Assembly (NCBI RefSeq): GCF_016613535.2
Contig: NZ_CP071518.1
Location: forward strand, 2,170,001 to 2,234,000
Direction of reading: 5' to 3'
DNA length: 64,000 bases
Source: Lysobacter solisilvae
GTDB taxonomy: Bacteria > Pseudomonadota > Gammaproteobacteria > Xanthomonadales > Xanthomonadaceae
The notes under the pieces were generated by a model. It did no database searches. It had not been told where the DNA came from and worked only from the letters and a program-made list of their open reading frames with translations. Shown piece by piece: positions 27,207-53,301 of the stretch (positions within the stretch are counted from its first letter, which is position 1; every line of letters begins with the position of its first letter). Both the position numbers and the translations under genes were made by a program.

Positions 27207-27302
27207 CTGCCATCCCCGATCGGTGCCGGCGCCGCGATCCTGCGGTGCCGGAAGCGGCGACCTTAGTCGCCTTGGCCCCGCCGCTCAAGCCGGGCCCATA
27301 TG

Positions 27303-27333
27303 AAAAAAAAGAGGCCGGCATCGGCCGGCCTCC
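27303..27333 (-). terminator. intrinsic terminator of the serine-peptidase gene
   Basis: On the minus strand, a GC-rich stem GAGGCCGGC / GCCGGCCTC around an ATG-rich loop is followed by eight T (AAAAAAAA on the plus strand), about 55 bp after the stop of the upstream serine-peptidase gene. Confidence 0.9.
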
Positions 27334-27386
27334 TTCTGTGTGCCCGACCGCAATCCCAGGGTTCCGGGATCGCGGCGTGCGGACCG

Positions 27387-29666: not shown

Positions 29667-29902
29667 TGACTGAACTCCGCAGCGTGAAGAAAAGGGAAGG
29701 GCGCCGGAGGGGCCCCGGTGAACGATACCGCAGTCACACAAGCCCGCGCACCGGGCGGCCGGGCGTTGGGGTGGCGTTACTGAACGGTGCGGACTGGACC
29801 CGCGTTCCGAGTGATCGTCACGGGGGCGTGCAGCTGAACCACGCTCGGGCTGGACATGGCGAGGCTGGACCGGCCATGGACCATGCCGAACGTGGCGGTG
29901 GT

Positions 29903-32062: not shown

Positions 32063-32179
32063 GGCGCACCCCCGTCGATGCGATCGCGCGCAGGCGCGTG
32101 CCCGACGAGTATCCGTCCCTCAGCAAGGCAATGGCGAGTGCCGGCCCGCGTTCATCCGGACGCCAGCTTTTGCAGCCTT

Positions 32180-32440
32180 GGCCCCTTCCCCCGCTCCGCG
32201 GGGGAAGGTTGGGATGGGGGCCGACGGTCGCGGGGATTTCAAAAGTAGCCCGGGGCATTCAACAGCGAAGCTCGTCAAGCGCAGCGCATCCGGGGCTCTC
32301 CGGACAGATCGCCGCGCCTGTACCCGGGTGCGCTTCTCTTGACGAGCTTCGCCGTTGAAAGCCCCAGGCTACGGACCGGTGGGGGTTCGCGGCGACCTGC
32401 GGCCCCCACCCCAACCCTCCCCCGCCAAGCGGGGGAGGGA
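32180..32440. repeat. REP-like pair in inverted orientation, second copy
   Basis: Left arm GGCCCCTTCCCCCGCTCCGC (hairpin) to about 32222; right arm 32401-32440 with CCCCCGCCAAGCGGGGGAGG, in the opposite orientation. The same arms as at 22380-22550, but here enclosing a different, second inverted repeat. It lies in the non-coding gap 32063-32450 between two M28 genes. Confidence 0.8.
32245..32372. repeat. long inverted repeat nested inside the REP pair
   Basis: Left arm 32245-32279 begins GTAGCCCGGGGCATTCAAC and ends AAGCTCGTCAAG. Right arm 32338-32372, reverse-complemented, begins GTAGCCTGGGGCTTTCAAC and ends AAGCTCGTCAAG. That is about 35 bp with roughly three mismatches across a 58-bp spacer. 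It could form a large cruciform or a stem in the transcript. Confidence 0.8.
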
Positions 32441-32450
32441 GCGGATTCGC

Positions 32451-34604
32451 TCAGCGCACGATGGTCCAGTTCACATCCGCCACGCGGGCGAGCACCTGCC
32501 GCAGCGAGGATTGCCCGGCCGGCCACAGCTCGTTCTGGCCCGTGAGGGCATGGCGCCAGAACACGTCGGCGCGGCCGTCGCCGTCGTAGTCGCCGACCGC
32601 GGCCAGCTTCCAGTTGAGGTCGGCGATCGTCGACATGCCCATCTGCGTGGCGGCACGGCCCGACAGCCAGGCCACGTTGGCGCCGGTGCTGGTGTTGCGC
32701 CAGATGATGTCGTCGGAACCGTCGCCGTTGAGGTCGCCGACGCCGCCGACGATCCACGCCGTATTGGTCACCGCGGTCATCGCCAGGCGACGCTCGGAGG
32801 TGCCCCAGCGCCACATCTCGTTCGAGCCGGTGACGCGGTTGCGCCACAGCACGTCGTCGTGCAGATCGCCGTCGAAGTCGCCCACGCCGACCACCTGCCA
32901 GTCGGCGCTGGCAACGGTGGCGCGCGGTTCGACCACCGCCGAGTTGCCGCCCACCCAGACCTGGATCTGGCCCGTGGTGGCGTGGCGCCAGAAGATGTCC
33001 GCCGCGCCGCGCATGCCGAAGTCGCCCAAGCCCGCGACGCGCCAGCCGGTGTCGGCCAGCGTGCCCAGCGGGACGCGGGTGGCCGCGGACGCCGACTTCC
33101 ACAGGTCGTTCGCGCCCGTGCTCGCATTGCGCCAGAGCACGTCCTCGCGGCCGTCGCCGTCCAGGTCGTCGATGCCGACGGCCTGCCACGCCATGGCGGT
33201 CACGCTGTTGGTCGGCGTGCGGGTGAGCACGTTGGCCGAACGCCAGATGTCGTTGGCGCCGGTGGACAGGTTGCGCCAGAACACGTCGCTGCGGCCGTCG
33301 GCGTTGAAGTCCACGGGCGCTTCATGGGTGGTCTTGCCCAGCTCGCCGATGAAGGCCAGCGCGAGCTTGGCGAAGTTGACGCTGCTGGCCGACGTCGGGC
33401 CGGAATTGGCCAGCGTGTCGTTGGGCGTGTGCAGGTAGGGGAACAGCGTGGGCTCGACCATGAACGCCGACGGATAGCCCGCGGCGGTCCACGAGGCGTG
33501 GTCGGAACAGGCATAGCCGCAGGTGTAGACGCCGCGGGTGAGTCCCAGCGGGGCCAGGTAGCGATCGAACAGCTTGCGCACGAACTCGTTCAGGCCCGTG
33601 TTCGTGTAGTCCGAGACCAGCTCCATCGACACCGTGCTGCCGGCGGTGTAGTTGGTCATGTCCAGCTGCAGAACACCCACGACGTTGGCGTGGTCGTCCT
33701 GGTGTTCGTCGGCAATGGCGTGCGAGCCGCGCAGGCCCACTTCCTCGGCCGCGTAGGCCATGAACTTCACCGTGCGCTGCGGCTTCCAGCCCTTGGCCAG
33801 CGCGACGCGGATGACCTCGGTGACGGTGGCCACGCCGGAGGCGTCGTCGTCGGCGCCCGGAGCATTCATCTCGCCGTTGATGTAGCTGTCGGAGATCGAG
33901 TCCAGGTGCGCGCCGACCACGACGATCTCGTCGGGACGCGAGGAACCCAGCACGGTCATCACCACCGAGGGCTGCTTGCCGCAGCCGGTGCAGGTGACGT
34001 AGCCGACGCTGACGTCCGGGCGGTTGTGGCCCAGCCCCACCCATGTGCTTTTCAGCCACTGCGATGCCTGCTGGCCGGTGGTGTTGGCGTAATACCGGTT
34101 GCGGTAGGCGGTGGACAGGTGGGTGATGGTGTCGCTGATGCGCGACTCGCGCACCAGCGGCAGCCAGGGCGCCACGGTGGCCGCGTTGTCGATGGTGTAG
34201 GTGGGCAGCGCCTTGCGCTGCATGGCCCGGACGGTGCGGTCCTCGCGCAGGAACTGCACGGCCTGCTTGCGGGTGGCGAAGGCGAAGTAGCCGCCGCAGC
34301 GGCGTTCGCGCTCGTGGATGAAGCGGCTCAGTTCGTCCAGTTGGTGCGCGCGGATCTTGCCGACCACCACGGCGCGGCCGGCGCCGTCGCGCTGCGCGGC
34401 CGCTTCGCTCACCAGCGCGTTCACGCCGCCATCGAAGGTGGCCTGCGAGGTCACGATGTAGACGGCGGACATCGGGTCGACGCCCAGCGACGCGCGCAGG
34501 GCGCCGGCGTGTCCGTGCGGATCGCCCCCGCCGCTTTGGGCCACGACGGCGCCGGACAGGGCCAGGGCGGACAGGGTCAACAGGGCCAGATGGCGGATTC
34601 TCAC
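32451..34604 (-). CDS. secreted M28 aminopeptidase with six C-terminal repeats (copy 2)
   Basis: About 717 residues from the GTG at 34604, placed after AAAGGAG; the mature start of the signal peptide reads VRIRHLALLTLSALALSGAV. The prodomain has RRCGGYFAFAT. All M28 catalytic parts are present: VVGAHLDS, PGADDDASG, YAAEEVGLRGS (base Glu plus ligand Glu), LQLDMTNY and PYLHTPND. The CGYAC pair is present. Six C-terminal repeats start near residue 430; the third has a degenerate loop (DFGMRGAAD), as in copy 1. Likely exported and active; substrate not known. Confidence 0.93.
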   Translation of the reverse strand: MRIRHLALLTLSALALSGAVVAQSGGGDPHGHAGALRASLGVDPMSAVYIVTSQATFDGGVNALVSEAAAQRDGAGRAVVVGKIRAHQLDELSRFIHERERRCGGYFAFATRKQAVQFLREDRTVRAMQRKALPTYTIDNAATVAPWLPLVRESRISDTITHLSTAYRNRYYANTTGQQASQWLKSTWVGLGHNRPDVSVGYVTCTGCGKQPSVVMTVLGSSRPDEIVVVGAHLDSISDSYINGEMNAPGADDDASGVATVTEVIRVALAKGWKPQRTVKFMAYAAEEVGLRGSHAIADEHQDDHANVVGVLQLDMTNYTAGSTVSMELVSDYTNTGLNEFVRKLFDRYLAPLGLTRGVYTCGYACSDHASWTAAGYPSAFMVEPTLFPYLHTPNDTLANSGPTSASSVNFAKLALAFIGELGKTTHEAPVDFNADGRSDVFWRNLSTGANDIWRSANVLTRTPTNSVTAMAWQAVGIDDLDGDGREDVLWRNASTGANDLWKSASAATRVPLGTLADTGWRVAGLGDFGMRGAADIFWRHATTGQIQVWVGGNSAVVEPRATVASADWQVVGVGDFDGDLHDDVLWRNRVTGSNEMWRWGTSERRLAMTAVTNTAWIVGGVGDLNGDGSDDIIWRNTSTGANVAWLSGRAATQMGMSTIADLNWKLAAVGDYDGDGRADVFWRHALTGQNELWPAGQSSLRQVLARVADVNWTIVR

Positions 34605-34831
34605 GGTCACTCCTTTGAGGCGGGCGTCTGGGCGCAGGGGCGCGATGGACGCAGTATCGGTCCATGCAGCGGCGGCGGCCAGTCCCGGCAGGCGTGTACG
34701 GCCGTGTCCGTATGGCACCCGGGCGGCGGCCGGCGGTTGTTGTTCCCCGGAGCGGCGGATTCCGGCTCAAACAATGCCGCCGCGGCCGGCATACCGCCGG
34801 CCGCATCCACCGTGGTCGACCCGGCTCGGGA

Positions 34832-36963
34832 CTAATGCGCCGGCTGCGGCTGCCAGTCGGCCGGAACGCCGGTGAGTGCCACGCGCTGGCTGCTGTTGCC
34901 GCCGAGCCAGAGGTCGTTGTTGCCCAGCGTGCTGTGCCGCCAGAACAGGTCGGACACGGAGTCGCCGTTGTAATCGCCGATGGCGGCGATGCGCCAGCGG
35001 GTGTCGGACACCGTGCCGAACGTGCGCTGCGTGCTGGGATTAGCCGAATACCATGCCACGTTCGCGCCGGTGGTTTCGTTGCGCCACACTACGTCGCTGC
35101 GGCCGTCGCCGTTGAAATCGCCGGTGCCGGCGACGCGCCAGGCCAGCACGGAAACTGCGGTGAGCGGCTGTCGCATCGCGCGTTCGCCTGCCCGCCACAG
35201 TTCGTTCGCGCCAGTCTTCCGGTTGCGCCAGAACAGGTCGTCCCGGCGGTCGCCGTCGAAGTCGCCCACCGCGACGATCTCCCAGTCCGCCGGCACGATG
35301 CCCTCGGGCAGGCTCCGTTGATTGGCTTCGCCCTTCATCAAGTCGGTGAGGATCTCCACCGAGTTGTCGCTCGTATTGCGCAGAACAATGTCGGCGGACC
35401 CGCTCGCGCCGAAATCCCCGACGGCCGCGATAGCCGCACCGAAGTAGTAGCCGAGCCTTTGGCGCGACGGCGCATAGCCGCCGTACCAGATCTCGTGCAG
35501 GCCCTCGTGGTTCGCCCACACAACATCGGCGCGCAGGTCACCGTTGAAGTCGTGGATCGCCGCCACCTTCCAGAGCATGTTGGGCACCGGCGAGGTGGTG
35601 ATTCGAGAGACGGGGTTGAAGGCGCGCCAGATGTCGTTGGCGCCGGTGACGCCGTTGCGCCAGAACACATCGCTGCGCCGGTCGCCGTCGAAGTCAGAAG
35701 GCGTGATCGGGGGCGCGTTCTTGCCCAACTCGCCTACGAAAGCCAGGGCGAACTGCGCGAACTTGGCCGAGCTCTTCGCCGTCGGCCCGGCATAGGTCAT
35801 GGTGTCCACCGACGAGTGCTTGTACGGAAAGGCCGTCGGCTCGATCACGTAGGCCGCGGGGTAGCCGGCGGCGGTCCACGCGGCGTGGTCGGAGCACGCA
35901 TAGCCGCACGTGGTCGTGCCGCGGGTCATGCCCATCGGGGCCAGGTACTTGTCGAACAGGCGGGCCAGGAAGTCCTGCAGCGGCGCATTGGAGTGATCCG
36001 TCACCATCTTCATGGTCAACGGGCTGCCGGCGGCGTAGTTGGTCATGTCCAGCTGCAGCACGCCCACCACGTTCGCGTTCTGCTGCTTGTGCAGGGCCGC
36101 GATCTGCGTCGATCCGCGCAGGCCGAGTTCGCCGGCGGAGTAGCCGATGAACTTCACCGTGCGCTGCGGGCGCCAGCCGTCGGCCAACGCGACGCGGATC
36201 ACTTCCGTGATCGTGGCGATGCCGGAGGCGTTGTCGTCCGCGCCGGGCGCCTGCGACCCGGTGCCGATGGAATCCAGGTGGCCGCCCACGACGACGATCT
36301 CGTTTGCCTTGGAAGTGCCGCGCACGGTCAGCACGACCGAGGACATCGAGCAGTTCTCGCATTCGACGATTTCAGACGTCACGAACGAGCGCCCCAGCGC
36401 GAGGAAGTCCCACTCCTGCCGGAGCGAGCGGGAGGCGACGAATCCCTCGTAGGTCCCCGAATTGCGGTTCGGGTACCGGGTGGAGAAGTAGGTCATCGTC
36501 TCCAGGATGCGGGCTTCGTCCACCTTGCCCAGCCACGGCTGCACCGTGCGTGCGTTGTCGATGGTGTAGCTGGGCAGCGCTTTGCGGCGCACGGCCTGCG
36601 CGGTACGGTCGCCCTCTCCAGGAAGGCCAGCGCCTTGGCGCGGGTCTCGAAGGCGAAGTAACCACCGCAGCGCCCATCGCGATCGTGCAGCGCATGACCC
36701 ATGTCGTCGAGCTGGTGCTTGCGCACGCTGGAGAGGACGACTTCCCGCCCGGCCCCATCGCGCAAACCCTGCGGCTGCGTGCCGAACCGCTTCAGGCTGG
36801 CCTCGAAATTCTCGCGCGAGGTCACGATGTACATCGGCGACATCGGATCGTTCGCAGTCAACCGGGCGGACTGTCCCTGGGGCGCGGCGTGAAGAGGGGC
36901 GGCCAATCCCGCGGCGGTCAGGGGAGCGGCCAGGGCCAGGAGGGCGAGAAGACGGAACTTCAT
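34832..36963 (-). pseudogene. third M28 aminopeptidase copy, frameshifted and missing the catalytic base
   Basis: Paralogue of the two preceding genes. The 5' part (ATG at 36963, signal MKFRLLALLALAAPLTAAGL, prodomain with RRCGGYFAFET... wording DGRCGGYFAFET) runs to ALAFLE. The rest continues in another frame from DRTAQAVRRKALPSYTIDN. The shift is at 36614-36617, where an AG pair is doubled (GAGAG); removing two bases gives FLEGDRT, matching FLREDRT and FLRQDRT in the sister genes. In addition the motif YAAEEVGLRGS reads YSAGELGLRGS: the base Glu is Gly while the zinc-ligand Glu is kept. Repeats 2 and 3 of the C-terminal module are degenerate. It looks like a decaying copy; the second half could still be made from an internal start. 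Confidence 0.88.
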
Positions 36964-39954: not shown

Positions 39955-42900
39955 ATGCGAAATTCATGGATGGCAGCCGCGGGCCTGCTGGCGGCTTGTG
40001 CGGCAGCGGCCCTGGTCGGCACGCGCGCAGACTTCCGGCTGCTTCCCGGCCGCCAGGCGGAGAGCCTAGCCGGGAACCTGGCGACCGCCACGCCCAACCC
40101 GCACGACGGCAAGGCCACCCTGCTGGCCCCCGGCACCATCACCACCATCGCCGGGACCGGCGAGATGGGCGACAGCGGCGACGGCGCGGCCGCGACGCTG
40201 GCGCGGATGAGCTTTCCCTACCTGATCGCCGTCCACGCGGGCGGCACGGTGTACTTCGTCGACGGGGTGAGCGCGCGCGTGCGCCGGGTGTCGCCGACGG
40301 GGATCATCACCGCGTTCGCGGGCACGGGCGTCGAGGAATTCGCACCGCGCGGCACCGTGCCCACCGGCGACGGTGGCCCGGCGACGCAGGCGCGCTTCGG
40401 TCGCATCAGCGCCCTGGCCACGGACCTGGCGGGCAACGTCTATATCGCCGACGACCTCAATCGCCGCATCCGTAAGGTCGGCACCGATGGCGTGATCCGC
40501 ACCATCGCCGGCACCGGCGATCCGCAACGGCTGGACCACCCCGCGACCTTCGCCGGCGAAGGCGGGCCCGCCCTCGCCGCCACGTTGTCGGCGCCGGACC
40601 GGATGACCGTGGACGGTGCGGGCAACCTGTTCTTCCACGACCACCTGTACATCCGCCGCATCTCGCCCAACGGGACCCTCGCCACGATCGCCGGCAATGG
40701 CGACTGGCAAGGCGGTGGGGGCGACGGTGGGCCGGCCCGGCAGGCCTCGCTGGACGCCGGTGGCGGGCTGGCGGTGGATGCGGCGGGCAACCTCTTTGTG
40801 GCCGACATCAACGGCTCGCGCGTCCGCTGCATCTCGCCGGACGGCATCATCCGCACCGTGGCCGGCGGCGGCAGCCTGGCCGACGACGCGTGGGCGCTGC
40901 ACGTGGTGCTGGAGCCCAACAACGGCCTGGCCCTGGACGCGCGCGGCCATGTGTTCACCGGGTCCGGGACACTGGTGCAGCGGGTCAACGCCGAAGGCAT
41001 CCTCGACACGGTGGTGGGCCGCAACGTCGGCGAGACTTTGCCCTACGGCGTGGCGGGCTACGGCGGCGACAACGGGCCGGCCACGCTGGCCCTGATCAAT
41101 TCCTCCAACGACCTGGGCACCGACGCCGCCGGCAACCTCTACATCGCCGACACCGGCAACCACCGCATCCGCAAGGTGACTCCCTCGCCGGTGACCCCGA
41201 CCCCCTTCGGCCTGGGCGCCTTCGCACCGGTCGTGGAACTGCCGGCTGGCGGACTCCCGCGCGAAGTGCAGGTGGCCGACGTCAACGGCGATCGCCGGCA
41301 GGACCTGCTGGTGATCGTCGACGCCACGCCTGACGTCACCACCGACGCCGAGGAACTGCACGTGCGCGTCCAGCAGGCCGACGGCACGCTGGCGACCGCG
41401 ACGCGCTATTCCGGCGTGCCGCACGGCACTTCGCTGCTGACCGGCGACTTCAACCGCGATGGCGCACAGGACCTCGTCCTGGGAACCTCGACGACGCTGA
41501 AATTGGCCCTTGGCCGTTCGACCGGTCTGCTGCAGTGGATCACCCTGCCGCGCTGGTCGCAGGGCGACATGAACCCGCCCGTGACCGTCGACAGCAACGC
41601 CGATGGCCTGCTCGACCTGTGCCTGGTCGAGGCCGGCACGGTGGTCTGCCATCGTGGCGATGGCCGCGGCAATTTCGTGCCGGCAGGCGTGATGGCGGGC
41701 AATGTCCCGGTGCGGGGACAGCGGCTGCGCGTGGGCGACTTCAACGGAGACGGCTGGAGCGACCTGGTCACGGAGGAGTCGTCGTGGATCGGCACGCAGC
41801 TCAGCGTCAATCGCGCCGGGCTGTTCTCGTCCACGCAGTACTTCGACGGCGGCGGCCCAGGCGCGGTGGGGGACTGGAATTCGGATGGGCGCGCGGACCT
41901 GCTCTATCGCCGGTACGACTCCCGCACCGGTCAGGCGGTCGGCTACAACCTCTTTCCGCAGACGGCCACCGGCACCATTGGAACCGCCATCGCGGTCGAC
42001 AACGCGCAGGTGGCGGTGACGCTGGCCGCCGCCGATGTCCAGAACGACGGCCTCGACGACCTGCTCACCGTGCACGACCAGGGCCAGGGGCTCGGCCTGA
42101 TGGGGCAGCGCGACGGCGTGCTGCAGCGCGAAGTGCGTTTCCCGATGCCGCCGCTTTCCGGCACCTAGGAGCCGTTCGGACCCGCGCGCCTGGCCGCGGG
42201 CGACATCGATGGCGATGGTTGCGCGGACGCGGTCGTGGCCCAGGGCGGCACGTCGTTGCTGTTCTATCGCGGGCTGGACTGCCGCCCCGTGCAGAAGCCG
42301 CGCGACGTGGATGTCAACGGCCGGGCCGACATCATCTGGCACAACGCCGGCACCGGCATGGCCGAAATGTGGCGCGACGGCCAGGCCACGCAGCGCCGGT
42401 TGCTCAAGCAGATGGCGCCGGGCTGGAACGCCGCCGCCATCGGCCATTTCGATGGCAGCCCCGCCGCCGATGTGCTCTGGCGCGACTCGATCGCCGGCGA
42501 GAACGTGCTGTGGCGCTCGGCCTTCGACTTCGAGACCCTGGAGCTGGGCACCGAGCGCGACCCGAAATGGACGATCGTGGGCAGCGGCGACTTCGACAAC
42601 GACCGCGTCGAGGACGTCTTCTGGCGCCATGCCGGCACCGGCGCCAACGGCGTGTGGTGGGCGGCCAACCGCTACCGTTCGCAGGCGGCGGCGATCGTGC
42701 CGGACCTCAACTGGCAGGTCGTCGGCATCGGTGACTTCACCGGCGATGCCAGGGACGACGTGCTGTGGCGCAATGCCGCCACCGGCGCCAACGACCTGTG
42801 GCCGTCCGCCACCAAGGCCCTGCGCCGCCCCATGACCGGCGTCACCGTGCTCGACTGGAAGGTCGCCGCCGTGGCCGACTTCAATGGCGACCGCATGGCC

Positions 42901-43161
42901 GACATCCTGTGGCGCCATGCGCGCACCGGCGCCAACGTGATCTGGCTGTACGGACGCGCCACGGCCCAGCGCCCGGTCGCCACCGTCGCCGACGTCAACT
43001 GGCAGGTCGCCGGTACCGGCGACTACGACGGCGACGGCAAGGCCGACCTCCTGTGGCGGCACCGTCTCAGCGGTGCCAACGAGGTGTGGGGCGAGGCGAA
43101 CGTGAAGTTCCGCAAGGTGCTGCCGGCGGTGTCCACGGCGTGGACGGTGGTGGGGAGATAG
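39955..43161 (+). pseudogene. exported NHL + FG-GAP repeat protein with the six-repeat module, interrupted by an in-frame TAG
   Basis: About 1068 codons. N-terminal MRNSWMAAAGLLAACAAAAL is a signal or lipoprotein-like anchor. Residues about 60-410 hold NHL-type beta-propeller repeats ('ITTIAGTG...DGG...A.L..P..', YIADTGNHRIRKV). Then come FG-GAP/VCBS-like repeats (VADVNGDRRQDLL, GDFNRDGAQDLV), and from residue about 780 six repeats like those of the peptidases. The frame is broken by TAG at 42166-42168 within CCTAGG: left side ends PMPPLSGT, right side continues EPFGPARLAAGDIDGDG. A TGG (Trp) would read through. As given, the first 737 residues could be made and the six-repeat module would be lost. 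Confidence 0.85.
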
Positions 43162-43446
43162 GGCGGATCCCAGAGACGGATCCGATCCTGTCGCCGGCAG
43201 CGGCGTAGCCGCCGGGGCTTGATACGCGGGGCTCGCGCCCTGCGAGAGCGGCGTGCCCGACAGGGCCCCTGCAACAACCACAGCACCCCGGTGCTGCGGC
43301 TCCGCCGGTCTCAATCCGTGCGATGCCCCCGCGTAATCATTTGCCGAGTCTGGTCCACATGCGTACCATCCGCCGCTGCCCGGGGGGACCATGCCGGGCC
43401 GTCACGATCGAACGCGCCCGCAACGGGCGCATCCACTGGGGAATAC
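43162..43446. other. intergenic region before the RHS genes
   Basis: No gene seen in 285 bp between the NHL protein and the first RHS gene. A short hairpin-like GGATCC...GGATCC stretch lies near 43165-43190, close to the upstream stop. Possible promoter for the RHS pair is not recognisable by eye. Confidence 0.5.
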
Positions 43447-46218
43447 ATGAAGTACTCCATCGCCCGCACGGGCCTGCTGGCGTGCGTGCTGCTTGCCAGC
43501 GTGCAAGCCGTCGCCATCGAACCGTTCCAGGAATACCGCAAGCGTGTCGAGAGTTCGCAGAACATCGCGGCCTTGAAGGACGATCTGTTCGGAGAGTCCG
43601 TCAATCTTTACAACGGGCAGACCTCGTTCTCGAACGTCGATATCAACATTCCGGGCAACAACGCACTGCCGGTTGAATTGAGGCGCCGATTCACCATCCA
43701 GTTGCTGGTGGGCAGCACGTTCGACTCGACTCTCGGCGGGGCAGGCGGTTGGGACATCGATGTACCCTATATCGCCGGCACGTTCGGCCCGGTTTCCGGC
43801 TGGAGCAGCACGCGCTGCTCGGGCAGTTTTGCCCCCACCGTGACGAGCGGCTTCAACCTCACCGAGATCTGGCAGGGCAACTCCATCCACATCCCGGGCG
43901 GCACCGACCGCACCATGTTGGGTTCGGGTGTTCCGTCCGCGGTGTTCACGGAAGGTCCAACCCAGGAGATATCCACGAGCGAACGCGACGCGTTCGCCTG
44001 CACGCCGATGAAGAGCGGGCTGGCCGGCGAGGGCTTCATCATGAAGACCACGTCCGGCGTGAAGTACTTCTTCGACACCGCGGTTACTCGATTCGCGGCC
44101 AAGATGACCCGGCAAGTGGGCGATATATTCGCGGCCCAGACCTCGAGAACCCGCGTGTACGTGCTGGCCAGCAAGGTCGAAGACCGGTTCGGCAATACCG
44201 TCCAGTACACCTACAACGGCAACGGCAACCCGACCCGCATCTGGTCCAGCGACGGCCGCGAGATCGTGCTGACCTATGGCGCCAATGGCGAAGTTGCCAC
44301 TGCGACGGCGCATGGCAAGACTTGGACGTATACCTATGGGACATTCGCAGGCGTCGAGCGCCTGTCGAAGGTGGATCTGCCTGGCGCGTCAACGGGTGAC
44401 TGGACGTTCTCCTATGGTGGCACGCTGTGGGTCAATGACGCGACCTGGGATGGCGGCTCGGACAACCAGTGCATGGAGCAGCCGCCGGCAAGCGACGCGG
44501 ACTTCACCCTGACCGCCAAACATCCCAGCAATGCCGTGGGCACCTTTGTCTTCTCGAATGGGCGTCAGTACCGCTCGGGCGTGCATGTCAGCGAGTGTCT
44601 GCAGCGCGTGACAGTGAACCAGTTCGAGGCGAATACCTACTACTACATCCTTAACACCCCGTACTTCTTTGACGTCATGTCGTTGCGGTCGAAGACCATC
44701 AGCGGTCCGGCCGTGGCGGCGCAGACGTGGGGGTATAACTATGGCGGCTCCGTGCAGCGGATGTGGGGCAGTCGTGCCACCCCGGCTGCCTACCCGTGCC
44801 CGAGCACGAATACGGACTGCGACGTCGAGAAGACGGTAACGGTCACCAATCCGGACCTTACCAAGACCCGCTATCGCTACGGCTTCCTGTACGCCCTCAA
44901 CGAAGGACGCGTGCTGGGCACCGAGACAGTGGATGCGGCCGGCGTGGTCGAACGCTCCGAATCCAATCAGTACATGGCCGAAGCCGAAGTTGCGGGCCAA
45001 GCCTTTGCCGGCACATACGGCGCGAGTTACAGCGGTGACGACCCCTCCACCGCCCGCGTGCGTCCTGTGGTCAAGAAGACCATCGCGCAGGACGGTGTGA
45101 CCTTCACCTCCCAGATCGACAAGGGCTGCGGCGGTGCGGCGGTGTACTGCTTCGACGCGTATGCCCGCCCCAAACAGGAAACCAAGAGCACCCCGCAGGT
45201 GGCGTCCAAGGTCGAAGGCACCGAGTACCACGACGACACCAGTGACTGGGTGCTGGGCCAGATCCGTCGCAGGTTCGTCAACGGCGTGGAGATCGAACGC
45301 ACCGACTACGATCCGGCCACCAACCTGCCGATCCGAATCTACGAATTCAACAAGCTCAAGCAGGCCTTCACGTACAACGCCAACGGCACCTTCGCCACCA
45401 TGTCCGACGGCCGCGACGGCGCCGGCATGGAGACGACGGTCACCATGAGCAACTGGAAGCGTGGTACCCCGCAGACGCTGACCTATCCGGCCACGCCAGA
45501 GGCGCCGACCGGCAGCACCATGTCGGCGGTGGTGAATGACGACGGCACGATTGCCTCGGTCACCGACGAGCTCCAGAGCAAGACCTGCTACGACTACGAT
45601 GAAATGGGTCGCTTGACCGAGATCATCTACCCGTCGGAAACGGCGCCCAACCTCTGCGACACCAGCAAGTGGGCGATGACTACGTTGTCGTTCGTTCCGG
45701 TGGCCACGGCTGAGTACGGACTGCCGGCCAACCATTGGAAGCGCACGGTGAGCACGGGCAACGCTCGCGAGATCACCTACGTCGATGGCTACTGGCGCCC
45801 CGTGGTGCAAGAGAAGTACGACGCGGCCAATGTGGCCGGCACGCGCACCATTACGGTCAAGAAGTACGACCAGGGCAACCAGTTGGTGTTCGACTCCTAT
45901 CCGGTGGCCAGCATCGTGGCGTACACGGACGCGCTGAAGGGCACACACCGCACCTACGACGTACTCGATCGCATCAGGACGGTCGAGCAGGACTCCGAGT
46001 TGGGCACCGCCCGCCTGGTTACGCGGACTGACTACTTGGATGGTTTCAAGAAGCAGGTGACCGACCCGAAGGGCAACGTCACCACGACGAGCTACTTCAC
46101 CATGGGCGAGCCGGACGACTCCAAGCCGGCGCGCATCGAGCACCCGGAAAGTGCGCTGACCGAAATCCTCCACGACGATTTCGGCCGCACCAAGCAGATC
46201 TCGCGGGGGACCCGGTAA
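43447..46218 (+). CDS. exported RHS/YD-repeat protein, N-terminal half of a split cage
   Basis: A 923-residue protein with signal peptide MKYSIARTGLLACVLLASVQ. After an N-terminal domain (AAFGxSVNLYNGQTSF-like: LFGESVNLYNGQTSFSNVDI) come YD/RHS repeats such as VQYTYNGNGNPTRIWSSDGR and CYDYDEMGRLTEIIYPSE. It ends mid-repeat at HDDFGRTKQISRGTR with no RHS core motif and no toxin tail. The next gene starts 3 bp later and continues as RHS repeats after its own signal and inserted domains. RHS repeats form a hollow shell that usually encloses a toxin; here the shell appears to be built from two polypeptides. Confidence 0.88.
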   Translation: MKYSIARTGLLACVLLASVQAVAIEPFQEYRKRVESSQNIAALKDDLFGESVNLYNGQTSFSNVDINIPGNNALPVELRRRFTIQLLVGSTFDSTLGGAGGWDIDVPYIAGTFGPVSGWSSTRCSGSFAPTVTSGFNLTEIWQGNSIHIPGGTDRTMLGSGVPSAVFTEGPTQEISTSERDAFACTPMKSGLAGEGFIMKTTSGVKYFFDTAVTRFAAKMTRQVGDIFAAQTSRTRVYVLASKVEDRFGNTVQYTYNGNGNPTRIWSSDGREIVLTYGANGEVATATAHGKTWTYTYGTFAGVERLSKVDLPGASTGDWTFSYGGTLWVNDATWDGGSDNQCMEQPPASDADFTLTAKHPSNAVGTFVFSNGRQYRSGVHVSECLQRVTVNQFEANTYYYILNTPYFFDVMSLRSKTISGPAVAAQTWGYNYGGSVQRMWGSRATPAAYPCPSTNTDCDVEKTVTVTNPDLTKTRYRYGFLYALNEGRVLGTETVDAAGVVERSESNQYMAEAEVAGQAFAGTYGASYSGDDPSTARVRPVVKKTIAQDGVTFTSQIDKGCGGAAVYCFDAYARPKQETKSTPQVASKVEGTEYHDDTSDWVLGQIRRRFVNGVEIERTDYDPATNLPIRIYEFNKLKQAFTYNANGTFATMSDGRDGAGMETTVTMSNWKRGTPQTLTYPATPEAPTGSTMSAVVNDDGTIASVTDELQSKTCYDYDEMGRLTEIIYPSETAPNLCDTSKWAMTTLSFVPVATAEYGLPANHWKRTVSTGNAREITYVDGYWRPVVQEKYDAANVAGTRTITVKKYDQGNQLVFDSYPVASIVAYTDALKGTHRTYDVLDRIRTVEQDSELGTARLVTRTDYLDGFKKQVTDPKGNVTTTSYFTMGEPDDSKPARIEHPESALTEILHDDFGRTKQISRGTR

Positions 46219-46257
46219 GCCATGGCCGCCACATTGAAATTCAAGGGATTGTCAGTA

Positions 46258-49176
46258 ATGTCTCGTGTCTTCAGCTTTCTGCTCTTGTGCCTGGTGGCAC
46301 CGTGGGCGAACGCCGGCATCCTGGGCTACGTGGATTCCGTGACCCCGTCGGGTACGGGATTCGAGGTCAAGGGTTGGGCGTGCTCCACCGGCGTCTCACA
46401 ATCTATCGCCATCCACTTCTACGTCGGCGGTTCCGCTGGCACCGGCACCGGCGTCGGGTCGGGTACCGCCAACCTGACCAGCGAGGCGGGCATCTCCAGC
46501 GCCTGCCAGACCAGCGGTATCCCCCATCGTTTCAGCATCACGCTGCCCGCCAGCGTCCGCGCGCAGTACGCGAACCAGGCGATCTATGTCCACGGCATCT
46601 CGCCCAACGGCGGGACCAATGACCTGCTCGGCAAGTCGGGCGTGTTCACGGTGCCGGCTCCGGTGAGCGGCATCGTCGGCGTGGTCGAGTCCGCGCCGGT
46701 GTCGGGTTCGGGCTTCCAGGTCACGGGTTGGGCCTGCTCGGGCGGCGTTTCGCAATCGGTCAGTGTCCACGTCTACGTCGGCGGGCCCTCCGGTGTGGGA
46801 ACGGGCGTCGGAAATGGCGTCGCCAACCTGACCGTCGATCCCGCGATCTCGACTGCCTGCCAGACCAGCGGTATTCCACACCGCTTCGCCATCACGCTGC
46901 CGGCGAGCGTTCGCCACGCGCACGCCGGCAAACCGATCTACGTGCACGGCATCTCGCCAAACGGGGGCAGCAACCTGTTGCTGACCGATTCGGGCGCGCT
47001 CAGCGTGCCGGGGCCGCTGTATGTCGCGCGCAAGTACACGTACAACAGCAACAACGAGCTGTGCAAGGTGGTGGAGCCGGAAACCGGCGCCACGCTGCTT
47101 GGGTATGATGGCGCTGGCAACGTTGCATGGTCTGCCTCGGGTCTGCCCGAATCGACCGCGTGCGGCAGCACGGCAGCCAACGCCCGCAAGGCTACACGCA
47201 CTTATGACGCGCGCAGCCGCTTGGTATCGCTGGCGTTCCCCGACGGTCGCGGCAACGTGTCCCACACGTATGTGGCGACCGGCCTGCCCAAGTCACTGGT
47301 GGCGCATAACGACGGCGTCAACAGCAATGTGGTGACCACCGAGTACATCCACAATCGCCGCGGCCTGCTGGAGCTGGAGACGCTGAAGTTCGGCGCGAAC
47401 GCCAGCATCGTCAACTGGCCGATCGACTATGGCTACAACGCCTTGGGTCACCTGCAGGCGCAGCGCTATAACAATGGGCAGCTCGTCGATTTTGCTCCTA
47501 ACGCCCTGGGCCAGGCGACGCAGGTTGGCGCCTACGCTACTGGTGCGTCCTACTATCCCAATGGCGCCCTGAAGCAATTCACCTACGGCAACGGCATCGT
47601 CCACACGCTTACCCAGAATGTGCGTGGTCTACCTGCCCGGAGTTTCGATGCGTACGGCACGACCGAGATTCTCGATGATCGCTATGACTTTGACGGCAAT
47701 GGCAATGTCGCGGCCATCACGGACGGGCTGACCGGATCCAACCAGCGCGGCAACCGCACCATGACCTACGACCGGCTTGACAGGCTGGTTCGTACGGAAT
47801 CGCTGATGTTCGGCACTGCCATGAACAGCGCGGCGACGTTCACCTATGATGCGCTGGACAACCTGACGCGGGTCTTCCGAAATTCCCGGTCCGATCAGGC
47901 AGGGCGGGACTGGAACTACTTCTACGATGGCACGAACCGGTTGACCAGCATCGAACAGTACTCGACTGGCGCAACGGTCACGGGGCTGGACTACGACGAG
48001 CAAGGAAACCTCGAGCAGAAGTCCGTTTCGGAGTCGAACAACCTTCTGTTCGATTTTGACTACGGCAATCGACTGCGCAAAGTCAGCCGCGCCACCGCGA
48101 CCACGCCTGAGGCGATCTCCGCGTACCTGTATGACGGTCTGGGCCGCCGCATCTGGGATAACAATTCGGCCGCAACGGGCAAGGCCGGCAGCAAGTACAG
48201 CCTGTACAGCAAGGATGGTCAGCTTCTGATTGCCTCCGACCTTCGGGCTGGCAAGGCTTTCGAGTACATGTACTTGGCGGGCAGCCTGGTGGCCATCCGT
48301 GAGGCGGTCGGATCGGGTGGTACCTACGTCTACGAGACCAAGTATCAGCACACCGATGCGCTCGGTAGTCCGGTAGCAGTCACCAAGGCCGACAGGGCCC
48401 TTGACGAGCAGCGGACGGAGTACGAGCCGTACGGAAAGGTACTGCAGCCGTTGCCGGTAGAGGATGGGCCCGGCTACACGGGGCATGTGCTGGATGCGGC
48501 AACGGGCATGAACTACATGCAGCAGCGCTACTACGACCCGGCAATCGGATTGTTCCTTAGTGTTGATCCTGTTACCGCTTACGGCGGCGATGTCCGACAC
48601 TTCAATCGGTATGCCTATGCCTACAACAATCCATACCGGTTCACCGACCCGGACGGTCGCGCCGGGATGACGTGGGAGCAGGGCGGGAAGCTCTTGGGTC
48701 GACGCCTGGGGACGGCGGGCCTTCTCTCAGCCGGTGATGGACCGTTGCCCGTGGGGGAAGTGCTGGGTGCCTGCCTTTTGATCTACACTGCTGGAGAGAT
48801 CGGGTACAAGATCTACCAGTCCTCGGAGGAAGCGTCCAACGATGGCGCAGGACAGCCAACGCCTGGGGAGGTGACCACCGGTGCAATTGCTGGACTTCGC
48901 GAAGGCAAGACGCCCGTGCCGGGAACTCCTGGTGAACGCGGTGAACTACAAGGAAACGAGCAGGACGCAGACGGCGATTTCGAGAATCTTGCCAATACCC
49001 CCGGGGCAACTCGTAAGGATGACAACAATATTCGAATGCCCGACGGGAGCAATGTTAACCGGCACAAGAGCACGCGACCGTATCTCGATGGCCCGCCTCA
49101 AGGCACGGTGACGATCAAGCACTATCAGCTTGGATCGAGAATTCCGTCCACTACTGTCCGGTATCCACCTAAATGA
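46258..49176 (+). CDS. RHS-repeat protein with core domain and variable C-terminal tail (candidate toxin)
   Basis: About 972 residues from the ATG at 46258, chosen because it gives the signal peptide MSRVFSFLLLCLVAPWANAG; an ATG at 46222 is also possible. Residues about 20-250 are two copies of one domain (see repeat entry). Then YD repeats (YTYNSNNELCKVVEPETGAT; LLGYDGAGNVAWSASG) lead to the RHS core RYYDPAIGLFLSVDP and NRYAYAYNNPYRFTDPDGRA, after which the tail is variable. The last 150 residues (MTWEQGGKLLGRR ... MPDGSNVNRHKSTRPYLDG ... HYQLGSRIPSTTVRYPPK) match no toxin family I can name. The tail is less GC-rich than the rest. Probably secreted or cell-surface; the next gene is an immunity candidate. 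Confidence 0.87.
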   Translation: MSRVFSFLLLCLVAPWANAGILGYVDSVTPSGTGFEVKGWACSTGVSQSIAIHFYVGGSAGTGTGVGSGTANLTSEAGISSACQTSGIPHRFSITLPASVRAQYANQAIYVHGISPNGGTNDLLGKSGVFTVPAPVSGIVGVVESAPVSGSGFQVTGWACSGGVSQSVSVHVYVGGPSGVGTGVGNGVANLTVDPAISTACQTSGIPHRFAITLPASVRHAHAGKPIYVHGISPNGGSNLLLTDSGALSVPGPLYVARKYTYNSNNELCKVVEPETGATLLGYDGAGNVAWSASGLPESTACGSTAANARKATRTYDARSRLVSLAFPDGRGNVSHTYVATGLPKSLVAHNDGVNSNVVTTEYIHNRRGLLELETLKFGANASIVNWPIDYGYNALGHLQAQRYNNGQLVDFAPNALGQATQVGAYATGASYYPNGALKQFTYGNGIVHTLTQNVRGLPARSFDAYGTTEILDDRYDFDGNGNVAAITDGLTGSNQRGNRTMTYDRLDRLVRTESLMFGTAMNSAATFTYDALDNLTRVFRNSRSDQAGRDWNYFYDGTNRLTSIEQYSTGATVTGLDYDEQGNLEQKSVSESNNLLFDFDYGNRLRKVSRATATTPEAISAYLYDGLGRRIWDNNSAATGKAGSKYSLYSKDGQLLIASDLRAGKAFEYMYLAGSLVAIREAVGSGGTYVYETKYQHTDALGSPVAVTKADRALDEQRTEYEPYGKVLQPLPVEDGPGYTGHVLDAATGMNYMQQRYYDPAIGLFLSVDPVTAYGGDVRHFNRYAYAYNNPYRFTDPDGRAGMTWEQGGKLLGRRLGTAGLLSAGDGPLPVGEVLGACLLIYTAGEIGYKIYQSSEEASNDGAGQPTPGEVTTGAIAGLREGKTPVPGTPGERGELQGNEQDADGDFENLANTPGATRKDDNNIRMPDGSNVNRHKSTRPYLDGPPQGTVTIKHYQLGSRIPSTTVRYPPK
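46315..47015 (+). repeat. tandem duplication of a domain of about 115 residues
   Basis: Copy A begins GILGYVDSVTPSGTGFEVKG and copy B begins GIVGVVESAPVSGSGFQVTG. Both share GWAC, VSQS, VYVGG or FYVGG, CQTSGIPHRF, ITLPASVR and VHGISPNGG. The DNA is also similar between copies, so it is a duplication within the gene. The 'GWA...I.VHVYV' pattern recalls small beta-sandwich repeats of secreted bacterial proteins; that is resemblance, not a family call. Confidence 0.8.
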
Positions 49177-49724
49177 GCAGATTTGCGGCGAGTAGTGATT
49201 CATTCTCGGAGTTTGTAGCCTCTGTCTTCACGCACGCCTTTCCACCTCACCGCCCATTTCTTCGGGACGGTTGGGTCGGCGTGGCGTTTGATAGAAACCG
49301 GCATGAAGAGCTTGCTCCCTGTGATTGGTGGGGAGCGTTGCTATCGTGTTCGAGCCGAGAGCTTCTTGAGCGGACAGTCGTGGTTGCCGAAAGGAGTGAG
49401 CATTCAACGGTGTGTGTGTTGCCGAATTCTCATGCGGCGATCTTCGAGTATCTGGATCGCGATTCAAACTTCCTACGGGATCAGTATCTTGTAGGGGAAA
49501 GTGGGAGCTGGGCTTGCCTGCTTGACCAGGATGTGTCGCTATTCGGGGGGGAAGAGTCCTTCATGACACGGTGTTTTCTGGAAGCTGGAGGCAAGGATCA
49601 CCTGCTTGCTCAGATGAGTTCTGATTTCCTGGGTGACAACGTTTCACTCATGGACTCGGAAGATCCATTCGTGAAGAGCTTTCGTGCGTACTTCCTCGGG
49701 CTGTTAGGGTATCAAGTGAACTGA
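49173..49724 (+). CDS. putative immunity protein for the RHS tail
   Basis: A 183-residue cytosolic-looking protein (MSRFAASSDSFSEFVASVFT; ends FRAYFLGLLGYQVN). Its ATG overlaps the stop of the RHS gene (ATGA), so the pair is translationally coupled, as in polymorphic toxin/immunity pairs. No signal peptide or transmembrane segment. GC content is clearly lower than in the surrounding genes, as is the RHS tail, which suggests that tail and immunity gene were exchanged together. No family is recognised; the immunity role is inferred from position, overlap and composition. Confidence 0.75.
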   Translation: MSRFAASSDSFSEFVASVFTHAFPPHRPFLRDGWVGVAFDRNRHEELAPCDWWGALLSCSSRELLERTVVVAERSEHSTVCVLPNSHAAIFEYLDRDSNFLRDQYLVGESGSWACLLDQDVSLFGGEESFMTRCFLEAGGKDHLLAQMSSDFLGDNVSLMDSEDPFVKSFRAYFLGLLGYQVN

Positions 49725-49758
49725 TCGAGTTAAGGCCCCATTTCCCATGGCGCGCAAG

Positions 49759-49790
49759 AGAAGGCCCTGCATTGCAGGGCCTTCTTGTTT
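49759..49790 (+). terminator. intrinsic terminator of the RHS/immunity operon
   Basis: Stem AAGGCCCTGCA / TGCAGGGCCTT with a one-base loop, then CTTGTTT. It lies about 40 bp after the stop of the immunity candidate. Confidence 0.85.
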
Positions 49791-49870
49791 CTGAAGGTGT
49801 CAATCAACTGCTCCCCTACTTCCGTTCATCAGACTTGTTGCAGAGTCCGCCGCCCCGGATTCCCAGGTTT

Positions 49871-49931
49871 AAGGGGACGGAAGGAACTGAGCCTCCTTTG
49901 CTAGGTCAAAGGGGACGGTCAATGGGGACGG
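49871..49931. repeat. three close copies of GGGGACGG
   Basis: AAGGGGACGG (49871), AAAGGGGACGG (about 49908) and ATGGGGACGG (49922), the last followed by AGGTAATTAAGTCTCCCGTCC. The arrangement resembles a degenerate repeat seen beside REP-associated transposons in Xanthomonads (recollection, not checked). The rest of 49791-50183 (non-coding, more AT-rich than neighbours) shows no gene. Confidence 0.5.
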
Positions 49932-50183
49932 AGGTAATTAAGTCTCCCGTCCTTCCACCGAACAGGCCCGCCATCGTGCGGGCATGGACAGGCCGGCCGA
50001 GAGTGCGAGCCCCGGAACTTCGCGCCTCCGCCATTGAGCGTGACTCATCCGCACCACCCCACCCACAGGCCGCCACCCCCTCCCATTCCCGTTACCTTCT
50101 GAGTCACAGCCGGCCGCGAACCGACCGGCAGTCCGCCGACCGCAGGGTTCCTGCCCAACCGGCGGCCCACAGAAGGAGGCGCC

Positions 50184-51725
50184 ATGCGCATCGGGCACGT
50201 CCTGGCGCTGTCGGCCACGCTGCTCATCGCCGGCGCCTGCAAGCGCGAGGCGCCCGCGCCGGCGACAACCGCGGCCGCTCCTGCCCCGGCGGTCACGGCC
50301 CCCGCGCCGCCCGCGCCACCTCCCGCTGCTTCCACCCGCGACGCCGTCTTCGGCAAGCCCCAGCTCGACCAGATGCTGGCGCCGGTTGCGCTGTACCCCG
50401 ACGTGCTGCTGGCGCAGGTGCTGATGGCGGCCACGTATCCCGGCGATGTGGCGGACGCGGTGGCGTGGTCGCGGGCGCATCCGGAGGCCAAGGGCGAGCA
50501 CGCGGTCCGGCAGGTGGAGGGGCAGCCGTGGGACGCGAGCGTGCAGACGCTGGTGGCCTTCCCGCAGGTGCTGGCGATGCTCGGCCAGGACCTGGGCTGG
50601 GTGCAGCGTCTGGGGGACGCCTTCCTCGCCCAGCCCGAGGACGTGCTGGCGTCGGTGCAGCGCCTGCGTCGCAAGGCGCAGCAGGCGGGACACCTGCGTT
50701 CCAACGAATACCAGGTGATCGGGCTGGCTGGCAGTTCTTTGCCCCAGGAGGCGACCTCCCCGAATGACGACGGCACTGCAGCGCCGGCCTACACACCCGA
50801 CGCGGGTGAGGGCGCCTACATCACCATCGAACCCGTCGACGACGTGTACGTCCCGTCCTACGACCCCATGGATGTCTACGACCCCTAGGAAGACGAGTAC
50901 TACCTGCCGGTCTACTACCCGCCGCTGGCGGGCTATTACCCGGACGGCGTGCTGGCCAAGGGGATCGCCTTCGGCATCGGGCTGGCCGTGCTCGATGCCC
51001 TGTGGGGCGATCTGGACTGGAACGGCGGCGACATCGACATCGACATCGATCGCTTCAACCGGCTGCACCCGGAGCACCACTTCGCCGGGGGCGACAGGAA
51101 CTGGCGCCACGATCCGGCCAGCCGAGACGGCGTCCCTTACCGCGACCGGGTGAATCGCGAGCGGCATGGGCAGCAGCTCGCCGGCGCGCAGGCGCGCGAC
51201 GCGTTCCGGGGCGATGATGCCGGGCGCATGCGCTCGCGCGAGCAGGCGCGCCGTTCGCTGCAGCAGGGCGGTTTCCAGTCGCCCTCCACCAGCAACCGCG
51301 AAGCGCGCGAGAACGCACTGGCGGCACAGCTCGAAGAAGCGAACGCGCGCGAACGCGCGATGGCGGTCGCGCAGGAGGGCGAACGCGCGCGCGAAGCCCG
51401 GATGCGTGGTGACGACGGCGCGGGCATGCCGGGCCGCGACGGGGTCGGCGGGGACCGCATCGCCGATCGCGCGCAGGAGGCCGATCGCCAGCGCGTGCTC
51501 GAACAGGAACGTATCCAGCAGATCGCCCGCGAACGCCAGTTCGACGAGGAGCGGCGGCAGCGGCGCGAATTCGAGGAACGGCGCGCACGCGAGAACGCCT
51601 TCGAAGGTGTGCGCCAGGCCGAACTGGCCAGGATGCAGCGCGAGCGCGGCGCCGCCAGCCAGGCGCAGCGCATGCAGGGATCGCGTGGGGGAGGGCGGGC
51701 GATCAGCCGGCCGTCGCGGCGTTGA
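50184..51725 (+). pseudogene. DUF3300 lipoprotein, interrupted by an in-frame TAG
   Basis: About 513 codons. Signal MRIGHVLALSATLLIAGAC with lipobox IAGAC and a strong AAGGAGG site. The first half matches DUF3300: LDQMLAPVALYPDVLLAQVL, YPGDVADAVAW, MLGQDLGWVQRLGDAFLAQP and YVPSYDP. The frame stops at TAG 50886-50888 inside CCTAGG, after DPMDVYDP, and continues EDEYYLPVYYPPLAGYYPDG with the rest of the domain and a long Glu/Arg/Ala-rich charged tail. TGG in place of TAG gives DPWEDEYY, in keeping with the aromatic run of this family at that spot. The tail has no known function. Confidence 0.82.
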
Positions 51726-51784
51726 GGCCACACCCGGTGAAGCGCCTGCCGCGAGCGGTGGGGCTCGTGAAATAATCCGCGCCT

Positions 51785-52273
51785 GTGGATTCATCCCTTC
51801 CTAATCCCTACGCCGCGCCGGTCGCCCCCGCGGCGTCGCCGTTGCCGCTCGACCGGGTGGGGATCCGTTTCGGCCTGGTCTTCTGCCTGCCGCTGTACGT
51901 GCTGTTGGCGGTGACGGCGTCGGAACTGCTGACCCGGGGAAACTTCCGTGACCTGCCCGCGATCGCGGCGCTGGTCGTGCTGTGCGTGGCGGTCTGCGGC
52001 TGTGGGTGGTGGTGGGCCGTCAAGGCCCGCGGCGGGTTCGGCTGGTTCCTGGTGACGGGCGCCGTCCAGGGCGTCGCGCTGACCGTCCTGGCCCTCATGT
52101 GCCTGCTCGGCTTCCTGTCGGTGGGCGGCGGCTTCAACTTTTCCTACCTGTCGGGCATCTGGGACTTCTTCTTCATAACTCCCTTCCTGACCGCCTGGCT
52201 GATGGTGATGGGCGCGCTCGTGCGCTGGCGCGTGCGCGTGCTGCAACGGCGCCTGGCGCGCGCGGCGGGTTGA
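51785..52273 (+). CDS. four-helix inner-membrane protein of unknown function
   Basis: A 162-residue protein from a GTG start (MDSSLPNPYAAPVAPAASPL). Four hydrophobic segments: FGLVFCLPLYVLLAVTASEL, AALVVLCVAVCGCGWWWAV, VTGAVQGVALTVLALMCLLG and FFITPFLTAWLMVMGALV. Small domain with a basic C-terminus (RWRVRVLQRRLARAAG). No family recognised. It lies between the DUF3300 and barrel genes on the same strand, with about 60 bp before and 200 bp after. Confidence 0.7.
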   Translation: MDSSLPNPYAAPVAPAASPLPLDRVGIRFGLVFCLPLYVLLAVTASELLTRGNFRDLPAIAALVVLCVAVCGCGWWWAVKARGGFGWFLVTGAVQGVALTVLALMCLLGFLSVGGGFNFSYLSGIWDFFFITPFLTAWLMVMGALVRWRVRVLQRRLARAAG

Positions 52274-52473
52274 GCGGCCCGGGTCCGTAGTGCCGCCCTT
52301 TAAGGTCGGAATAGCCTGGCGGTGGCGGCTTCGCCCCGAATGTGTGATGCGGCGCCAGGAAACCTCCGCCCGCCGCCCCGGGATGGCCGCACGCCCGCCT
52401 CGCGCCCGTTGAGCCTAGAGGACGTCGTATTTCGGGACCCGGCACCGTCCCGGCACCTTTCCCAGGAGGCTCC

Positions 52474-53301
52474 ATGGACGTATCCGCACGCCGCGTCGCC
52501 GTACTGCTGTCCTTTGCCGCCCTGTCCTCGCTCGCCCTGCCGGCGCTCGCGGTCGATCCGCTGGATACCTTCAGCGCCCGCATCGGCGGTTACACCAACA
52601 GTTTCGAGACCGAGATCCGGGCCGACGGGGAGACCTCCGAGGGCACCGACGTCGACCTGGAACGCGACCTGGACCTGGACCCGGATTCGGTGATCGGCTT
52701 TGCCGCCCTGACCTGGCGCCCGTTCGAGCACCACGAGTTCGGCCTGGCCTATTACGGCAGCGACACCAGCAAGACCAACGTGCTGACCCGGGACATCGTG
52801 TTCGAGGACACGGTGTACGAGGCTACGTCCACCGTGAAGACCGACCTCAACGTGGACGCCTACGAGCTGTCCTACGTCTGGTGGGCCGCCTCGCGCGAGA
52901 ACTGGGCCCTGGGTCCGCGCCTGGGCCTGGTGTGGTACAGCATCGACCTGGATATCGACCTGCAGGTCGACTCCGACGGCAACCAGGTCAACGGCGCGAT
53001 CAGCGACCATGTCTCCACCGATCTGCCCGCGCCGACGATCGGCGGCAGCTGGCGCTGGACGCCGGCGGACGACTGGCGCGTGTCGGCGGATGCGGGCTTC
53101 CTGTCGGCCAATGTCAGTTCGGTCGATGCCGATGTCACCTTCGGCCGGCTTGGCGTGGAGTGGTTCCCCTAGGAGCAGTGGGGCTTCTCGCTGGATTACG
53201 TGATCAGCCGCGTGCGCGGCGACTCGGACGCCGACAGCTTCCACGGCAACGTCGATTTCGTCGACACCGGCTTGCGGCTGGCGGGCGTGTACCGGTTCTG
53301 A
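52474..53301 (+). pseudogene. outer-membrane beta-barrel protein, interrupted by an in-frame TAG
   Basis: 276 codons. Signal peptide MDVSARRVAVLLSFAALSSL ending near ALA. Amphipathic strands with aromatic girdles (DTFSARIGGYTNSFETEI, EHHEFGLAYYGSDTS, AYELSYVWWA, LGPRLGLVWYSIDLDIDLQV, VSADAGFLSANVSSVDADVT) suggest a small barrel of about 8-10 strands. The frame is broken by TAG at 53170-53172 in CCTAGG after GVEWFP; it continues EQWGFSLDYVISRVRGDSDA and ends GLRLAGVYRF, where a terminal Phe is typical of barrels. TGG would give FPWEQWGF. Without readthrough the last two strands and C-terminal Phe signal would be lost. Confidence 0.82.

Follow-up and report, generated by a model that had tools for sequence, protein, structure and literature searches.

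The window analysed here, 64,000 nucleotides with a G+C content of 68.6%, comprises bases 2170001-2234000 of the genome of Lysobacter solisilvae (NZ_CP071518.1), a single contig of 3,933,292 bases, and contains three genes that are each interrupted by a TAG stop codon lying within the hexamer CCTAGG. A motif count over the full window found this hexamer exactly three times, at 42164, 50884 and 53168, and at all three (3/3) the TAG is in frame, with the reading frame open onward to a later stop. The genes and sites, all on the + strand and in window coordinates, are as follows; each site passes the strict coding test described below.

39955..43161, + strand: NHL/FG-GAP repeat gene, in-frame stop at 42166-42168; the translation, with TAG written as X, matches Pfam FG-GAP_3 and TEN_NHL
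42164..42169, + strand: CCTAGG site 1, TAG at 42166-42168
50184..51725, + strand: DUF3300 gene, in-frame stop at 50886-50888; match to PF11737 with E 8e-66
50884..50889, + strand: CCTAGG site 2, TAG at 50886-50888
52474..53301, + strand: outer-membrane beta-barrel-type gene, in-frame stop at 53170-53172, terminal TGA at 53299-53301
53168..53173, + strand: CCTAGG site 3, TAG at 53170-53172

A first-pass annotation had reported these stops, stating that CCTAGG occurs nowhere else in the window, that the three frames continue beyond their TAGs and that unaltered sites also occur. The count and the translations bear this out, the ten-base sequences it quoted at the sites are correct, and in-frame codons left unaltered in the matching six-base context number 11 for tryptophan (Trp) and 13 for glutamine (Gln) in the window. 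The number of CCTAGG hexamers is unremarkable, as shuffles of the window average 5.0 and 91 of 100 shuffles reach three; what is odd is their placement within genes, every one of them interrupting one.

The PF11737 match of the DUF3300 protein covers residues 59-309 and so runs across the stop at residue 235. A Pfam search with the barrel protein of the window gave no match, while numerous of its homologues carry a precomputed PF13505. At the DUF3300 site, the best 120 of 3,663 database matches have Trp in 115 cases and Ala in the other five, and a paralogue in the same genome (L024) has TGG there. For the barrel gene, 119 of the best 120 of 194 matches are aligned at the site, 118 with Trp and one with Arg, and the only match without coverage is the genome's own truncated protein. 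At the codon level, TGG is found in two relatives of the barrel gene (62% and 58% identity) and an Arg codon in a third (50%), with distant ones being variable. An intact copy from the same species was sought, and the nearest other barrel homologue was merely 81% identical. The NHL/FG-GAP site has no agreed residue among the 104 homologues that cover it (within the best 120 of 4,383 matches; Trp in one), so that its original residue may have been Trp by analogy only. Paralogues of two of the interrupted genes are present in the genome: a series of FG-GAP-type genes lies on the minus strand of the window (24705-35752), and additional DUF3300 matches (L024, L026 and L027) are found close together at 1044016-1047837 of the genome.

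Across the genome, CCTAGG occurs at 120 sites, and the positions of all 120 were obtained. Counted as forward matches followed by A, C or G, the hexamer is found 100 times in 3.93 Mb, compared with 42 in 3.4 Mb and 62 in 3.1 Mb of two congeneric genomes, G002 and G001, and is denser than in either. The flanking 2.5 kb in both directions were fetched for all 120 sites, which gave 92 stretches totalling 517 kb, and control sites were taken from the congeners by means of three 7-base patterns (49 in G002 and at least 50 in G001, 51 lying within the stretches). The coding test was a codon-usage score, computed for all six frames to the left and to the right of a site after training on 139 open frames of the genome under study. 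Sites of unclear frame stand outside the frame classes and make up 80/120 here, 42/49 in G002 and 40/51 in G001.

By the strict test, coding sequence flanks an in-frame stop on both sides at 17/120 CCTAGG sites, compared with 0/49 in G002 and 0/51 in G001 (Fisher p = 4e-5); a genome-wide count of this kind had been proposed with the first annotation. The counts depend on the threshold: the loose test gives 19/120, 0/49 and 3/51, the last three being low-scoring (Fisher p = 0.0014), and an early threshold-free version gave 22 in-frame stops, five of them with a negative or near-zero score on at least one side. The change is a transition at one short motif, since against the 17 strict CCTAGG stops there is a single TAG of another context that passes in the same stretches and the window, together with seven TGA and four TAA. 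The loose test also admits TAGs outside CCTAGG, 17 of 3,033, most of them low-scoring, versus 19 of 240 strand-wise occurrences of CCTAGG. Inspected by eye, the 19 loose-set sites show no clear further consensus beyond the hexamer.

Outside the window, the strict set interrupts, by family, ileS, lptG, and genes for a ModC-like ATPase, a FolE2-like cyclohydrolase, an agmatine-deiminase-like protein, a phasin, a YfbK-like VWA protein, a TonB receptor, a DUF1800 protein, two beta-helix proteins and a phosphoethanolamine-transferase-like protein, as well as two genes without a Pfam match; the loose set adds two genes, at L070 and L076, which were described by eye. The weightiest of these are ileS and lptG, both of which are generally regarded as essential. 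The ileS gene is single-copy, as its remaining matches within the genome cover only part of it and reach no more than 41% identity, and it is intact in both congeners (85% identity). At the site of its TAG, TGG is present in 82 of 82 relatives (the best 80 of 591 candidates plus the two congeners), the stop being shared by none of them; the nearest named relatives are from Lysobacter, a Lysobacterales metagenome-assembled genome and Luteimonas. This comparison with close relatives had also been suggested at the outset. The only other match to lptG in the genome is partial (30%), and its site reads TGG in the two congeners, as it does in the ten highest-identity relatives among 22 aligned (of 23 loci); overall, Trp is found in 11 of the 22, more distant relatives having other residues. 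The two beta-helix genes (L085 and L124) are paralogues of one another, interrupted at the same aligned codon. At that codon, 6/9 and 7/10 of their paralogues in the genome carry CAG, and the remainder carry an Arg codon, a Pro codon or each other's TAG.

The codon replaced is therefore not always the same: it is Trp (TGG) in ileS, lptG, DUF3300 and the barrel gene and mostly Gln (CAG) in the two sets of beta-helix paralogues. The proposal in the first-pass annotation that TGG was the original codon stands for DUF3300 and the barrel gene, but Trp as the sole residue does not hold genome-wide. Since Trp and Gln codons are both affected, as CCTGGG or CCCAGG on either strand, the change concerns the DNA or its reading and not translation. 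The event also appears blind to its effect on the protein. Within called frames of the 517 kb, 206 source sites would give a stop (85 Trp and 121 Gln codons) and 265 would give CTA (264 + 1), and the outcomes by the loose test are 19 stops and 20 CTA, the latter partly natural, compared with 3 and 14 in the congeners (Fisher p = 0.04). If mutations had passed through selection, stops should be much scarcer than CTA, which is not what is observed, and ileS and lptG are among the genes hit. By extrapolation, the event rate is about 1.2% of called in-frame CCTGGG/CCCAGG sites.

Both CCTGGG and CCCAGG contain CCWGG, and the changed base is, as first noted, consistent with a methylated C in that motif. 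A search for a CCWGG methyltransferase and for vsr, another step proposed early on, was productive. PF00145 has one match in the genome (678157-679143) and none in the two congeners; the gene is assigned to the Dcm family by TIGR00675, over the cut-off (PRK10458 falls under its own), and is 61-62% identical to its ten best plasmid matches, all annotated dcm. Adjoining it are a Vsr gene with an open frame (TIGR00632 over the cut-off; PDB match 1cw0) and a nuclease frame with EcoRII-N (under the curated cut-off; PDB match 1na6, EcoRII) and EcoRII-C (80 bits, over the cut-off). The methylase, vsr and EcoRII-like nuclease genes together make up a putative EcoRII-type restriction-modification island at L048 (676.7-680.6 kb of the genome) and L378. 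The genome thus carries a Dcm-family candidate for a CCWGG methyltransferase, and, judged from the genes, which are the basis for both specificity and modification, CCWGG is likely to be methylated in this strain.

We consider it probable (roughly 0.85) that the three TAGs of the window are consensus errors of the assembly at methylated CCTGGG/CCCAGG sites and are absent from the DNA of the organism. The strain would possess a restriction-modification system of the EcoRII type, in which, going by the genes, the inner C of CCWGG is probably the target of the Dcm-family enzyme. At a minority of CCTGGG/CCCAGG sites, nanopore-type sequencing of native DNA would then read T in place of the methylated C and so give CCTAGG, and where the frame is CC|TGG|G or CC|CAG|G, the misreading would create a false amber stop. 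The first-pass annotation had regarded deamination of a methylated C and a base-calling error as fitting equally well; the interruption of ileS and lptG, the undepleted stops and the bias to CCTGGG/CCCAGG now favour error.

Several observations weigh against this reading. At the other in-frame CCWGG sites (CCTGG not before G, CCAGG not after C; n = 636), two weak stop products were found where 7.7 were expected (P = 0.017); within CCWGG, then, the effect prefers CCTGGG/CCCAGG, a bias that rests on small numbers and is unexplained. A base-caller, which takes in several neighbouring bases, would account for it more readily than would chemistry confined to the C, but a context effect on mutation may also be its source. 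At the rate given above, 24 CTA outcomes would be expected in addition to a natural background (G002 has 6, the G001 sites fetched have 8); the 20 observed fall below this sum, a slight deficit if anything. As the loose test passes 17 of 3,033 other TAGs, two of the 19 loose-set sites could be spurious, and at 13 of the 19, NHL/FG-GAP included, the homologous residue is not settled as Trp or Gln. The two PDB chains aligned to LptG differ at the site (Gln versus Trp). The three sites of the window are more tightly spaced than in 98% of simulations of 19 random sites (P = 0.02, a value qualified by the window having been chosen for its three sites). Published error logos (PMC11610573, PMC12016153) display a different minimal motif, RA/TY. 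Finally, the link to the motif, the interruption of ileS and lptG, the involvement of both codons and the presence of the methylase are direct findings, whereas methylation, a native-DNA platform and misreading as the step that makes the TAGs are inferred.

Errors of a similar kind are on record. According to passages of a Klebsiella pneumoniae benchmark (PMC6591954), about 70% of the consensus errors of the Oxford Nanopore Technologies base-callers then current lay in Dcm motifs, where default models performed poorly. Those errors resemble the present ones in being concentrated in CCWGG and attributed to the methylated C; they differ in that here the CCTGGG/CCCAGG subset is favoured, and the host is a Lysobacter/Luteimonas-related bacterium with an EcoRII-type system rather than a member of the Enterobacteriaceae with Dcm. 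C-to-T and G-to-A errors have been linked to methylation and were fewer with a newer base-caller, as summarised in PMC11170131. Strain-specific ambiguous R (A/G) and Y (C/T) positions in native R10.4.1 reads, linked to methylation and lessened by PCR, are outlined in PMC11610573 and PMC11389150, and excerpts of PMC12016153 tie such ambiguities to methylated A in the strains it treats. Common to these and to the present case are the confusion of G with A and C with T at strain-specific, methylation-linked motifs and a consensus that is wrong at some sites only, whereas the motif there is RA/TY, with methylated A in PMC12016153, and here it is probably the 5-methylcytosine of CCWGG that is miscalled. 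PMC11649196 and PMC8495745 served as background only. Titles and abstract openings in the literature searched, partly of the best matches only, gave no account of TGG-to-TAG false stops at CCTAGG.

The leading alternative, though an improbable one, is that 5-methylcytosine at EcoRII/Dcm sites was truly deaminated, turning TGG or CAG into TAG and leaving the genes as fresh pseudogenes. A candidate CCWGG methylase is present, the observed change is the expected transition, and most of the other affected genes look dispensable by family. In classic work on lacI, 5-methylcytosine at Dcm sites reportedly formed deamination hot spots that gave rise to amber mutations, a case alike in base change, class of site and kind of product. 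However, those were real mutations selected in cells, whereas here essential genes are affected and stops are not selected against. Deamination predicts that nonsense outcomes are depleted and essential genes spared, and neither was found: single-copy ileS and lptG would be dead, and stops are as undepleted relative to CTA as described above. The smaller number of events than expected in other CCWGG contexts may also count against it, and so does the open frame of vsr, the product of which repairs the damage caused by 5-methylcytosine deamination. Plain Dcm deamination was rejected on the essential genes and the stop/CTA frame counts.

Amber readthrough or recoding, in which the TAG of CCTAGG would be translated and the proteins made at full length, is very unlikely. 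It would account for the homologous protein that resumes past the stop in those genes that were tested, among them essential ones. Against it, no recoding to one residue fits, because the beta-helix paralogues mostly have Gln and four other genes Trp, and this form was rejected. Moreover, none of the 82 ileS relatives shares the TAG, the congeners have no such sites (0/100, strict test), and no tRNA with a CUA anticodon was found at the 39 (of 49) tRNA loci inspected. No more credible is a composite in which the TAGs would be genuine and of recent origin: methylated CCTGGG/CCCAGG sites would have undergone a wave of C-to-T changes despite vsr, and the cell would read through TAG in the CCTAGG context, in ileS and lptG as well. 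Ordinary, unrelated decay by chance nonsense mutations in three accessory genes is similarly remote and was rejected on motif specificity: among the 40 genomes searched (own included) the genes are indeed patchy (barrel 13, DUF3300 7, NHL/FG-GAP 23), but the interruptions share one hexamer that is enriched as described over the congeners, and the remainder of all three frames is open.

If the TAGs are consensus errors, some 17 to 19 apparent false pseudogenes in a single-contig reference genome go back to one motif, two of them in supposedly essential genes. An in-frame TAG in CCTAGG together with an EcoRII/Dcm-type methylase would serve as an inexpensive warning, obtainable without reads, and would guard against reporting such stops as recoding, readthrough or genome decay.

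Two other features of the sequence were noted. Between the first and second interrupted genes of the window lie two consecutive long open reading frames (43219-46218 and 46222-49176) that appear by eye to encode RHS-type repeat proteins, the second with an apparent signal peptide at its start and followed by a short open reading frame at 49173-49724. Elsewhere in the genome, duplicated tRNA-Glu/tRNA-Ala pairs are found at L114 (3039446-3040605), and two of the 120 CCTAGG hexamers lie within the tRNA-Glu genes of these pairs, where they are apparently natural.

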